Positions 4,862 to 11,665 of a stretch of 11,665 nucleotides of DNA are shown piece by piece (position 1 is the first letter of the stretch; each line of letters starts with the position of its first letter). The DNA comes from Thermoplasmata archaeon (GTDB taxonomy: Archaea; Thermoplasmatota; E2; DHVEG-1; B8-G13): the NCBI GenBank assembly GCA_003649745.1, contig QMST01000005.1, positions 1-11,665 on the forward strand. The letters are read 5' to 3'. A model generated the notes under the pieces. That model was not told where the DNA came from and made no database searches. It saw nothing but the letters and a program-made list of their open reading frames with translations. A program made the translations under genes and the position numbers.

Positions 4862-6142
4862 TTATATCAGTCTTGCTTGCCCTCTTTTCTTATAAGCAAC
4901 AATATATTCTAAAATATCATCTTTTTCTTCCCTTAGAATCCTTAGTATCTCATCCTTGGAAATCGCGGTTTGTATCTCCCTTGTTCTCCCATATCTGCCT
5001 TTGGATATTGTCCTCGCATTGATTACCCCTAGCATATCAAGCTCTGAGATCAAATCAGCTATCCTCCGCTGTGTTAAACTCTCAACCCTTGCTTTTTTAC
5101 AAAGATCACGGTATATATCAAAAACTTCTCCTGTTGTGAGCATAGAGGGTAAACCATCTTTTTTATGCTCCTCCTCCCCAATCATTATTGAGGCCAAAAC
5201 TAATTTAGAATGAACAGGCAACGTCCTAATTACCTCTGTAACTCTATCTATTTCTATCTTATTCTGCGCCATTCTTACATGTCTCTCTGTGATATTCTTC
5301 GCCCCTTCTCTTTCTGCAAGCTCTGCAGATATTCTAAGCAAATCCAAGGCCCTTCTTGCATCCCCATGCTCTTGTGCTGCTAATGCCGCACAGAGAGGTA
5401 TCACATCCTCCTTTAACACCCCTGGTTTTAACGCAAGCTCCACCCGTTGTTTAAGAATATCCTTTAATTGCTCTGCGTTATATGGGTAGAAAACCATGTT
5501 CTCCTCTCCAAGACTAGATTTCACCCTAGGATCTAGGAACTCTGTAAATTTTAGATCATTAGAAATACCCGCAACAGAAACCCTAGCTTTTTCTAAATCA
5601 GAATTTATTCTAGATAAATTATAAAGAACCTCGTCCCCCTTCAATTTATCAACTTCGTCTAAAATTATTACAGTTACACCACCATCTCTATCCATCATCT
5701 GCTTAAGCTTACTATACACCTCATCCGTGGGCCATCCTGTGAAAGGAATGCGGTCTGCCCATTCCTCTATAAAATGATTTGCTATATTCTGCAAAACCCT
5801 ATAATGTGTATCAACAACTTCACAATTAATATAGATAAAATGTACTTTTTTACCAAGTTTTCGACCTTTTTCAAGTAATTCTTTGCCAACAAACTTAGAC
5901 ACCGCTGTTTTCCCAGTACCTGTCTTACCATATATAAAGACATTAGATGGAGTCTCTCCTCTTAGCGCTGGTGCTAAAATCGAGGCCAAATTATTAATTT
6001 CTTTCTCCCTATGAGGGAGAATCTCTGGCATATATGTTGGCCTCATTACCTCTCTATTTATGAAGAGAGGCTCAGATTTTAATATCTCCTCAAATATATC
6101 TTTTTTCGTATTAATGCCTCCTCCCGTGAAATCTATAAACAC
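4862..6142 (-). CDS. orc1/cdc6: Orc1/Cdc6 replication initiator
   Basis: This 426-residue protein is the archaeal initiator that binds origin boxes and loads the MCM helicase. AAA+ motifs are complete: Walker A GKTGTGKT (72-79), Walker B VIILDEVD (158-165), sensor 1 in GISND (Asn195), the DPRVKSSL arginine region (204-211), and sensor 2 in GDARRALD (260-267). The C-terminal winged helix (about 305-395) contains LTQRRIADLISELDMLGVINA and SKGRYGRTREIQ, the DNA-reading part in this family. NCEVVDTHYRVL and GWPTDEVY are typical of euryarchaeal Orc1 proteins. The chosen start is GTG at 6142. A strong internal GGAGG at 6117-6121 leaves the true start uncertain, although no canonical in-frame start follows before residue 33. 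The gene lies directly beside the origin elements. Confidence 0.95.
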   Translation of the reverse strand: MFIDFTGGGINTKKDIFEEILKSEPLFINREVMRPTYMPEILPHREKEINNLASILAPALRGETPSNVFIYGKTGTGKTAVSKFVGKELLEKGRKLGKKVHFIYINCEVVDTHYRVLQNIANHFIEEWADRIPFTGWPTDEVYSKLKQMMDRDGGVTVIILDEVDKLKGDEVLYNLSRINSDLEKARVSVAGISNDLKFTEFLDPRVKSSLGEENMVFYPYNAEQLKDILKQRVELALKPGVLKEDVIPLCAALAAQEHGDARRALDLLRISAELAEREGAKNITERHVRMAQNKIEIDRVTEVIRTLPVHSKLVLASIMIGEEEHKKDGLPSMLTTGEVFDIYRDLCKKARVESLTQRRIADLISELDMLGVINARTISKGRYGRTREIQTAISKDEILRILREEKDDILEYIVAYKKRGQARLI

Positions 6143-6178
6143 TAGATTCTCTAATAAACTTTGTTATTCAACAACACC

Positions 6179-6200
6179 AACCCCTTCATTTCATGTGGAA
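6179..6200 (-). repeat. Origin recognition box, left copy (ORB-L)
   Basis: Read on the minus strand, this is TTCCAC-AT-GAAA-TG-AAGGGGTT. It agrees with the right copy at 18 of 22 positions, and the four differences fall in two pairs. The G-run points away from the AT-rich centre, toward orc1. It probably binds Orc1 more weakly than the right copy, because the TTCCA/TGGAA dyad is imperfect. Confidence 0.75.
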
Positions 6201-6230
6201 GGATAAGAATAAAGAGATTAACTTAGAATG

Positions 6231-6310
6231 AAAACATTATTTATAAAACCTTTTAATTAGAGCTTCTTTTATACTATATATTTATATCTTGCAGTTATAA
6301 GTTTATATCT
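6231..6310. other. AT-rich tract, candidate duplex unwinding element
   Basis: Only 14 of these 80 bases are G or C, making it the most AT-rich stretch of the intergenic region, and it lies between the inverted ORBs. It contains TATA-like steps (ACTATATATTTATAT), which are also easy to melt. Confidence 0.6.
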
Positions 6311-6395
6311 AGGTTCACATCCTATACATTCTATAGGTAGATGATGGTGATGGATGATATCATATGTATCATTACCCTACATAGACTCTTCTTAT

Positions 6396-6420
6396 TTTCC
6401 ACTGGAAACCAAGGGGTTCC
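6396..6420 (+). repeat. Origin recognition box, right copy (ORB-R)
   Basis: The core dyad TTTCCA-C-TGGAAA (6396-6408) is followed by ACC-type bases and the G-string AAGGGGTT (6411-6418). This is the composite layout of the archaeal ORB: a TTCCA(C/G)TGGAAAC dyad plus a downstream G-run. The G-run points away from the AT-rich centre, opposite to the left copy, and the element ends 12 bases from the PRC-barrel stop codon. Confidence 0.85.
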
Positions 6421-6432
6421 TCCTCTTTCTGT

Positions 6433-9046: not shown

Positions 9047-9100
9047 CCTTTTCTCAATAATACCTTTTACCCCTCCCAAAAAATTATTATGTAAAAATAT

Positions 9101-9108
9101 TTTAAATA
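9101..9108 (+). promoter_or_regulatory. TATA box of the OB-fold/TctA operon
   Basis: TTTAAATA lies 68-75 bases before ATG 9176. With a start near 9133 the leader would carry the G-run at 9157-9163. This promoter is divergent from that of cdc48, and the 200-base gap 8976-9175 holds nothing else that I can identify. Confidence 0.4.
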
Positions 9109-9175
9109 TGAATTATATTATTACTCTTTAAAAAACAATGTATAAGACTATTAGAAGAGGGGGCGAACAAACAAA

Positions 9176-10092: not shown

Positions 10093-11665
10093 TTCCGAAA
10101 GTAGTCTTTGAATTGGATGTAGATGCTATTTAAAAGATTTTTTAAAAGACTTTTAGCAGCTGAATATAGAGAGTTTTGGTAAAAATAGGGTGTTTGAGGA
10201 GAGAGAATAGAGGAATCTTCTATGTTTTACTCTGGCTATAATTGTATTAAATCGGTTAAAAACAGCATCTTTGTTTATCCTCCTGGGTCTATGTTTTTGA
10301 GCATCTCTCCAAAATATTTTGATCTCAGGATATGGTTTTCTCCTATGAGTCCATATAGGTGTAGCCATATGAGTATGTCTGCTAGTATCCATAGGTTGTA
10401 GAGTAGTACTGAGAACATGAAGTAGAATAGTCTGATTTTGTAGTTTTTTGATGTTGTTTTTGGTCTAAAGGAGTGTTTCTTTACCCTGTAGCTTGTTTCT
10501 ATTCCCCATCTTTTTGAGTATAGTTGGAATAGTCGGTCTATGATTTTTGTATCGTTTTCTGAGAATGATATGTTGGTGGCGAATACTCTTTTTTCACCAT
10601 CTTTCTCATCTATTACTAGGTTGAATGACGTGTTTTTCATTTTGAAGTTTTTTACTATGGATGGTGTTGGCATTACATCCATGGTTCTTCTTATTGCATA
10701 GTTCATGTGCCCTGGCATCAACCATTTTATGCCATGTCGGTTTAGTGTTGCTATTGATTTTGAGTCGAAGAATCCTCTGTCTAGGTAGATTTTGTTTATC
10801 TTTATTCTTTTTGTGGCATAGTTTAGCAGTTTGCCTAGTGTTTTATCTTTTGTGTCTAGTCCGCTGACTGGTATGGCTAGTAGTGTGAATCTTTTGCCAG
10901 ATTCTACTATGTTTATGGTTGCGAACCTGTAGCATCTATCTGTTCCTCTGTCTGGTTGCATTCCTACAACCATTGGTGCTTTTCTGTTTCCGTAGAAATG
11001 CCAGTTTGTGAAATCAATTGCGCAGTCCACTGGTTTTCTTGGGTCTATGATGTTTGCTCTTCTTGCCATTTCCCAGATGATTTCGAAAAGGGTTATGAAC
11101 ATTTTTTGCAGCTCTGCGATATTTGAGTATTTTTTGAGATGGTAGAGTAGTGTGTCGCCATCTGGGCTAGAACCTCGTTCTATCCTGAATGTTTTGCTTC
11201 CATTTTCTGCGAAATCCTGATGCAAAGCTAGGTGTACAATCAGGTCTATGAACTGGTTTTTAGTATAGATTGTATTTGGTTTTAGATATAGGTTGATAAA
11301 AGGAGATAGGCGCTTTTTGAAAACCTTGCAGATCTCCCTTGTTGTTTTGTTTTTCTGTAGGAACTGATTTCGCTCTTTGGTTTCTCTCCTGGGTTTTTCT
11401 GGTTCAAAGATTTTTATATCAAAGATTATCCCGAATTTTTCTGAAACCTCTGCTATTTTATTGGCTGTGAAATCTAGCAGCTCCTTTGTTTTGTCATCTA
11501 GTATGTGGTTGATGAAGTAGCTTATTGTTGTCTGATCTGGTGTTTTGCTGAAACCTAGTTTGAACTTTTCCTTTGGATGTCGTTTTAGATGTCTTACAAG
11601 TTGTGTCTGAAACCTTATGCCTTTTAATTTCTGGAATAGAATAAGTTTTATGAGTGATTCATAGG
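10087..11665 (-). mobile_element. IS4-superfamily insertion sequence (right end outside)
   Basis: The element is placed from the break in the TctA-type gene to the window edge. Its near end carries a short direct repeat AGTAGT (10088-10093 and 10100-10105) around TCCGAA. The 182 bases between the break and the transposase stop codon hold no gene. They include TTTAAAAGA in two copies and the palindrome AAAAGACTTTT (10144-10154). The exact left boundary is uncertain by a few bases, and inverted repeats or target duplication cannot be checked without the other end. Confidence 0.7.
10275..11665 (-). CDS. IS4-superfamily DDE transposase (5' partial)
   Basis: The frame is open on the minus strand from the right edge to TAA at 10275-10277, at least 462 codons. 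A TTG at 11225 is not the start: upstream codons continue as a coherent protein (including SYFINHILDDKTKELL and KPRRETKERNQFLQK). Catalytic residues are Asp in AIDFTNW (11013-11015), Asp in YLDRGFF (10779-10781) and Glu in RWGIETSYR (10497-10499). The segment YSKRWGIETSYRVKK satisfies the Y(2)R(3)E(6)K signature of IS4-type enzymes. The N-terminal part resembles the helical domain before the catalytic core in ISH3-like archaeal elements, which is a tentative subgroup. The gene lies opposite in orientation to the TctA-type gene that it interrupts, and no internal stop is seen, so it may still be active. Confidence 0.88.
   Translation of the reverse strand, partial: YESLIKLILFQKLKGIRFQTQLVRHLKRHPKEKFKLGFSKTPDQTTISYFINHILDDKTKELLDFTANKIAEVSEKFGIIFDIKIFEPEKPRRETKERNQFLQKNKTTREICKVFKKRLSPFINLYLKPNTIYTKNQFIDLIVHLALHQDFAENGSKTFRIERGSSPDGDTLLYHLKKYSNIAELQKMFITLFEIIWEMARRANIIDPRKPVDCAIDFTNWHFYGNRKAPMVVGMQPDRGTDRCYRFATINIVESGKRFTLLAIPVSGLDTKDKTLGKLLNYATKRIKINKIYLDRGFFDSKSIATLNRHGIKWLMPGHMNYAIRRTMDVMPTPSIVKNFKMKNTSFNLVIDEKDGEKRVFATNISFSENDTKIIDRLFQLYSKRWGIETSYRVKKHSFRPKTTSKNYKIRLFYFMFSVLLYNLWILADILIWLHLYGLIGENHILRSKYFGEMLKNIDPGG

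Follow-up and report, generated by a model that had tools for sequence, protein, structure and literature searches.

Positions 6143–6432 of the window, by which we mean the whole analysed stretch of 11,665 bp, very probably (at a probability of about 0.9) represent a chromosomal replication origin of the oriC1 type of a Thermoplasmatota archaeon. The origin is ordinary in kind and well supported. Observed directly are two ORBs, their conservation and synteny, and the adjoining gene for an Orc1-family protein. Unusual features surround the origin, namely the start codon of orc1, a change of polarity in the box on the orc1 side, and a near-frozen box spacing with a core element that is absent from this genus.

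The box pair and its genomic setting

The box distal to orc1, TTCCACTGGAAACCAAGGGGTT, is located on the plus strand at positions 6397–6418, the proximal box, TTCCACATGAAATGAAGGGGTT, on the minus strand at 6179–6200. An earlier, sequence-only reading had described two 22-base elements agreeing at 18 positions, in opposite orientation, with inner edges 196 bases apart and G-runs pointing outward. Re-measurement returned the same identity (18/22), the inverted arrangement, the gap of 196 bp and an outward G-run in both boxes. With a matrix derived from a related family (f3; 28 loci), leaving out the window's genus, the distal box scored 27.9 bits and the proximal box 28.8 bits. Over the 11,665 bp, this held-out matrix detected the two boxes only; all other sites reached 5 bits or less, and the top score of a reversed-matrix control was 4.3 bits. 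Each of the two boxes differs at a single position from the common motif given for DoriC (PMC4164010). Three sequence features of an oriC1 are thus present in the window: the ORB sequence TTCCA-N3-GAAA with a terminal G-run, an AT-rich tract enclosed by at least two inverted ORBs, and adjacency to orc1/cdc6.

Judged by the window sequence alone, the rarity of the pair is only moderate: an inverted 22-mer pair with at least 18 matches was obtained in 13 of 2000 dinucleotide shuffles of 6143–6432. Since shuffling alone makes the pair only moderately unusual, the case for the boxes rests on relatives.

The spacer between the boxes (6201–6396) has an A+T content of 74% and is presumed to be the duplex-unwinding element. 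It holds the 82% A+T tract at 6231–6310, for which the 14 G/C per 80 bases counted earlier were found again. By itself, this tract is nothing special within the window, where 80-bp stretches with at most 14 G/C occur at three more places (1761–1844, 2548–2683 and 9054–9162).

The gene order is cdc48 (8975–6768), PRC-barrel (6681–6433), box pair and orc1 (6109 or 6142 to 4862), with all genes on the minus strand. The PRC-barrel protein gene (Pfam PRC) is the constant neighbour of the distal ORB; cdc48, encoding an AAA+ ATPase according to Pfam, is next in the conserved block, and synteny supports both assignments. The orc1/cdc6 initiator gene (Orc1.1, 4862–6109) encodes a protein in which the parts of an Orc1/Cdc6 initiator are all present, from the AAA+ ATPase through the Cdc6 lid to the winged helix at the C-terminus; the Pfam scores are 103 bits for Cdc6_lid and 100 bits for Cdc6_C (winged helix). 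Its top relatives of solved structure are 2qby_A (Cdc6 homolog 1) and 2v1u_A, which we take to be the Cdc6 proteins of Sulfolobus and Aeropyrum, respectively. Elsewhere in the window, a DDE transposase gene (PF01609) was found at 10275–11225, about 4 kb off the origin, and an ORF of 504 amino acids without a Pfam match at 275–1789. The latter shows 45% identity over 426 aligned positions to an ORF flanking the ORB pair in genome G002 (L010 7994–9508).

The window belongs to an assembly of 756 kb in 154 contigs with a completeness of 61% (G000; genomes of relatives are designated G and loci L, each with a number). Of the 52 genomes of its order, 2 belong to family f1 and are those of the window's genus, 5 belong to f2 and 45 to f3; the order perhaps corresponds to MBG-D/Thermoprofundales. 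Sequences related to the window orc1 come from MAGs labelled Thermoplasmata, Thermoplasmatales, Thermoplasmatota or Euryarchaeota, the nearest being L002 of isolate AUK181 with an amino acid identity of 92%.

Conservation and variation of the pair among relatives

Including the window, 34 orc1 loci of f1 and f3 were available, of which 30 with at least 400 bp upstream were eligible for counting the pair and four were left out. An orc1 N-terminus was found in all but 11 of the 52 genomes of the order, and those 11 contribute no locus; L073, L077 and L081 are duplicates of other loci, and L087 is a second orc. A divergent ORB pair with at least 20 bits per box was present in 30/30 eligible loci, window included, as counted with a matrix trained on the same 30 loci. 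In these loci, the upstream region of orc1, covered over up to 700 bp, contained no third box of at least 10 bits. Two later loci with N-terminal orc1 fragments (G038 and G011) both carry the pair, PRC and cdc48, with gaps of 147 and 146 bp. The divergent pair is hence found in 32/32 f1/f3 loci with at least 400 bp upstream, in no case with a third box. The same design in all of these loci supports the earlier interpretation as a minimal oriC with two boxes.

The pair is preceded by PRC in 28 f1/f3 loci out of 34; the six other contigs end 178–524 bp upstream of orc1 codon 14. In 27 of the 28 loci with PRC, cdc48 was matched as well, the exception being L029, whose contig starts inside PRC. 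The distance from PRC to the nearest box centre is 652 bp in G021 and 379 bp in G039.

The two boxes differ in how their G-runs are conserved. The distal box has GGGG in 29 of the 30 loci and GGGC once. For the orc1-side box, 13 loci show CCCC, 10 show GGCC and 7 a run of GGGG, where three of the 7 are shifted by one base (printed GGGC or GGGT). The orientation of the TTCCA-N3-GAAA core is unchanged whatever strand the orc1-side G-run is on. As 23/30 loci have GGCC or CCCC on the orc1 side, the order does not follow a general rule of outward G-runs. The CCCC loci fall together in the orc1 tree, in a single clade of 14 members with support values of 100/99 (L003–L007, L018, L019, L024, L032, L034, L038–L040 and L075), which includes L004 with less than 400 bp upstream. 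Over the whole tree, the three states of the G-run require 7 changes. The later loci of G038 and G011, which are outside the tree, also have CCCC in the orc1-side box.

The gap between the boxes is 144–151 bp in 25 of the 28 f3 loci and 169, 171 (contains N) and 185 bp in the remaining three. For f1, the values are 196 bp in the window and 214 bp in the sister species. The alignment of the f3 inter-box region has 33 of 147 columns conserved at 90% or more, and its conserved core reads AGTAT-N2-CC ... TATTTGAATATT-N-C-N-ATTTTTAAAA ... AAAAATTTTAAAAT. When this element was sought in the window and L002, the match was no better than in shuffles. The comparison suggests that the window's genus lost the f3 core element or never had it. 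Sulfolobus has a short element, the ucm, in the interval from ORB2 to ORB3; it is essential and is a binding site of UBP (PMC12141716). By analogy, one may guess that the f3 core serves a similar role.

Several described origins resemble the window locus in part. ORB pairs were predicted as origins in the Methanomassiliicoccales, which also belong to the Thermoplasmatota (PMC4153887). The ORB sequence described there is similar to that of the window, and the boxes are mostly paired and located beside one of two orc1/cdc6 genes (PMC4153887). The pair at orc1/cdc6.1 of 'Ca. M. intestinalis' is inverted like that of the window, with a spacing of 256 (PMC4153887). Among the pairs listed for this group, the spacings are 39, 47, 113 and 256, and three of four lie downstream of orc1/cdc6.1 (PMC4153887), whereas the window pair lies upstream of orc1, adjoins the cdc48-PRC block and has a spacing of 196 bp (144–151 bp in most relatives). 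With its two inverted ORBs around an AT-rich tract at orc1, the window locus is also similar to the ORB3-DUE-ORB2 part of Sulfolobus oriC1 at orc1-1, and the conserved element between the boxes of that origin (PMC12141716) is paralleled in the f3 relatives. Unlike the window, which has neither a third ORB nor the f3 core, the Sulfolobus origin as described includes a third ORB and, as the target of UBP, the 11-bp ucm (PMC12141716). Inverted ORBs with a terminal G-string adjoining cdc6 are likewise described for haloarchaeal oriC1 (PMC4010727, PMC3528665); in contrast to these, the orc1-side G-run varies in the window's order between GGGG, GGCC and CCCC.

The start of orc1

The apparent lack of a canonical start in orc1 is the most surprising of the new points. 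All elements discussed here are on the minus strand. A TATA-like element, TTTATTA, at 6152–6158 is identical in the alignment with the sister species and is the presumed orc1 promoter. Comparison with relatives places the Shine-Dalgarno sequence of orc1, GGGAGGAGG, at 6117–6125 and points to a near-cognate ACG codon at 6107–6109, 7 nt past the Shine-Dalgarno sequence, as the likely start; ATT at 6113–6115 is an alternative. The ORF caller chose GTG 6142, a codon located ahead of the Shine-Dalgarno sequence and replaced by ACG in the sister species.

A fixed script applied to the 34 f1/f3 loci assigned a near-cognate start (ACG, ATT, ATC or ATA, 7–10 nt past a strong Shine-Dalgarno sequence) to 21, ATG to 4, GTG to 1 and none to 8 loci, a tally that varies with the choice of Shine-Dalgarno sequence. 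Two of the eight loci without assignment (G019 and G033) show ATC or ACG if another Shine-Dalgarno sequence is selected, and in G025, one of the four ATG loci, ACG directly precedes the ATG. Applied to 12 loci from outside f1/f3 (f2 and other families), the script yielded ATG in 7, GTG or TTG in 3, a near-cognate start in 1 and none in 1; in the latter two (G055 and G053), ATG is present at another spacing.

Between the upstream in-frame stop and a conserved Asp-[Ile/Leu]-Phe motif, ATG, GTG and TTG are wholly absent in 14/34 f1/f3 loci as opposed to 0/12 elsewhere (Fisher p 0.009, relatedness ignored). The later loci also have no canonical start (ACG and ATT), giving a total of 16/36. In 20 of the 34 f1/f3 genomes, the window included, there is some in-frame ATG, GTG or TTG upstream, and in at least 8 f1/f3 genomes an in-frame GTG inside a Shine-Dalgarno sequence of the GGGGTGA or GGAGGTG type is a possible start. 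Loci with the start anomaly comprise the window (6107–6125), L002, L003, L005–L007, L013, L019, L022–L025, L031–L033, L037, L039, L040, L272, L273 and others.

As a control, 145 reciprocal-best ORF pairs from samples of G022 and G021 were compared. A candidate start close to where the alignment begins was missing in 8 ORFs of G022 and 16 of G021, and in both members of four pairs, among which orc1 is the clear case. Two of the three other pairs are 38–42% identical and aligned only from residue 38–50, and one has an ATG just downstream. A looser control, which flagged 12/160 ORF pairs, was dropped, as it counted shadow ORFs and alignments beginning before the ATG; orc1 was not flagged by it because G022 has a TTG far upstream. 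For the large subunit of PolD, ATG was found at the homologous codon in 27/30 loci and one codon later in 2.

From these comparisons, translation of orc1 in f1 and f3 seems to begin at near-cognate codons, in most cases ACG, that follow a strong Shine-Dalgarno sequence. Such a start would probably keep Orc1 scarce. Non-AUG starts with an extended Shine-Dalgarno sequence are described for infC, cvfC1 and ccpN of Staphylococcus (PMC13009471). The arrangement is alike in that a strong Shine-Dalgarno sequence precedes a near-cognate start; it differs from the Staphylococcus genes (PMC13009471) in that it concerns an archaeal replication initiator and is predicted to involve mostly ACG. Among the open-access matches listed, there is no description of a non-AUG start of an archaeal orc1.

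Alternative readings and significance

The ORB pattern TTCCANNNGAAANNAAGGGG has two perfect matches in the window's own assembly, both at the window locus. With up to 3 mismatches, 30 sites were found compared to 22 for a backward control; therefore, only strong ORB matches are telling. Samples of 800 kb per genome from G022 and G021 contain no pair besides that at orc1. A whole-genome pattern search in four single-contig relatives detected one extra ORB with zero mismatches each in G022, G016 and G021 and none in G046. As these ORBs have no partner, a single ORB does not mark an origin. Many equally good ORB copies, which according to the sequence-only reading would have spoken against an origin, were thus seen neither in the own assembly nor in the relatives. 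No second close pair was seen in the relatives, though one strong lone ORB is found in three of the four single-contig genomes.

The extra ORBs of G022 and G016 are located between the genes of two PolD subunits (PolC_DP2_N and DNA_pol_E_B in G022 according to Pfam). A survey covering 30 PolD loci, out of 45 genomes in which a match was obtained, revealed a lone ORB about 93–96 bp upstream of the large-subunit start in 7/30 loci (L202–L206, L208 and L228, from five g11 genomes, G049 and G013). Based on this position, a control of PolD by Orc1 via the lone ORB is possible. The strong lone ORB of G021 (zero mismatches, L192 1501, G021:C1:684555) lies away from PolD. A partial ORB (TTCCATGTGAAATAAAGG) was observed in the own assembly close to a contig end (L088 at about 1465, G000:C29:6464); the sequence preceding it resembles a tRNA end, and the only tRNA predicted by ARAGORN at this locus is tRNA-Arg at 1012–1087.

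An ORB upstream of PolD means that ORBs may regulate genes, and the boxes might accordingly be read as an operator for self-repression of Orc1, with the real origin elsewhere. The position of the f1/f3 pair directly upstream of orc1, with the TATA-like element between, would also fit this reading, which we nevertheless regard as very unlikely. Two divergent boxes and a near-fixed spacer length exceed the needs of an operator. Moreover, the pair is kept at PRC in the f2 genomes G008 and G002 (L009 4502–4634 and L010 9544–9710, at cdc48-PRC), although orc1, which starts with ATG there, is 1.4 kb (G008) or 4.4 kb (G002) away. Since the pair stays at cdc48-PRC when orc1 has moved, it is not merely an orc1 operator. 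The f2 genome G010 has one box by PRC at a contig end and another by orc1 at a different contig end. Roles as origin and in autoregulation can coexist.

It is very unlikely that the locus is a dormant or secondary origin and that the main one uses another initiator. A second orc paralogue with about 30% identity does occur in many relatives, but the one locus of this kind inspected (L087 of G001, 2.7 kb) contains no ORB of at least 13 bits, and the ORB pairs described for Methanomassiliicoccales accompany just one of two orc genes (PMC4153887).

The absence of a clear skew signal at the locus would also be compatible with a dormant origin. Archaeal origins are often, yet not always, located near an extreme of the base-composition curve. 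As the own genome consists of 154 contigs, skew was examined instead in three single-contig relatives (G022, G021 and G016). Samples of 40 × 20 kb each of G022 and G021, containing 8,300 and 9,600 N, respectively, gave no convincing origin signal in raw GC, AT or purine skew or in gene-strand bias. Permutation p values for raw GC skew were 0.21 (G022) and 0.48 (G021). The best arc ends at 1186 kb in G022, with orc1 at 1252 kb, and spans 1698 to 483 kb in G021, neither end being at orc1 (154 kb). The only low permutation value, about 0.01, was that for gene-strand bias in G022; the corresponding arc spans 1762 to 466 kb, and orc1 is not at its end. Skew at third codon positions was corrected for gene strand and calculated from samples of the three relatives with orc1 as origin and the terminus opposite; it gave t values for GC and AT of −1.91 (rank 31 of 80 positions) and −2.33 (rank 5 of 80) in G022, −0.62 and 1.20 in G021, and −0.75 and −0.15 in G016. 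The GC value for G022 with a free terminus was 3.25. The best GC positions are weak and lie within about 125 kb (G022) and 75 kb (G016) of orc1. The skew extremum that the sequence-only reading had named as support was therefore not found as a convincing break at orc1 in the three sampled relatives, and skew is neither convincing support nor refutation of an origin.

A chance inverted repeat in AT-rich intergenic DNA, conceivable given that 13/2000 shuffles reach 18/22, is hardly credible, because the divergent pair recurs in 30/30 eligible and 2/2 later loci and this comparison already refutes chance.

Returning to the replication origin, a mechanism can be proposed on the basis of what is generally known about Orc1 and of publications on Sulfolobus and haloarchaea. 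Orc1 (4862–6109) would bind the two inverted ORBs with its winged helix on the TTCCA-GAAA core and its AAA+ region on the G-run side. Bound Orc1 would guide a pair of MCM helicases to the AT-rich spacer; the spacer would then melt, and bidirectional forks would depart upon firing. Besides the skew results and the lone ORBs, it counts against an origin that this genus is without the core common to the 28 f3 loci.

With some reservation, we favour the joint view that two families throttle replication through a near-cognate Orc1 start (mostly ACG, also AUC, AUU or AUA) combined with a strong Shine-Dalgarno sequence, and that the origin evolves asymmetrically: the orc1-side G-run has switched strands in one clade, whereas the spacing and the distal ORB are nearly frozen.

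Among the open-access matches listed, none describes an origin of this order. The results place the likely chromosome origin, with a simple two-box design, for an uncultured lineage of Thermoplasmatota and for many members of its order. The natural series of GGGG, GGCC and CCCC with an unchanged core offers a ready means of testing in what way the G-string is read by Orc1. If true, the ACG/AUH start of orc1 would represent an archaeal replication initiator limited by the choice of its start codon.
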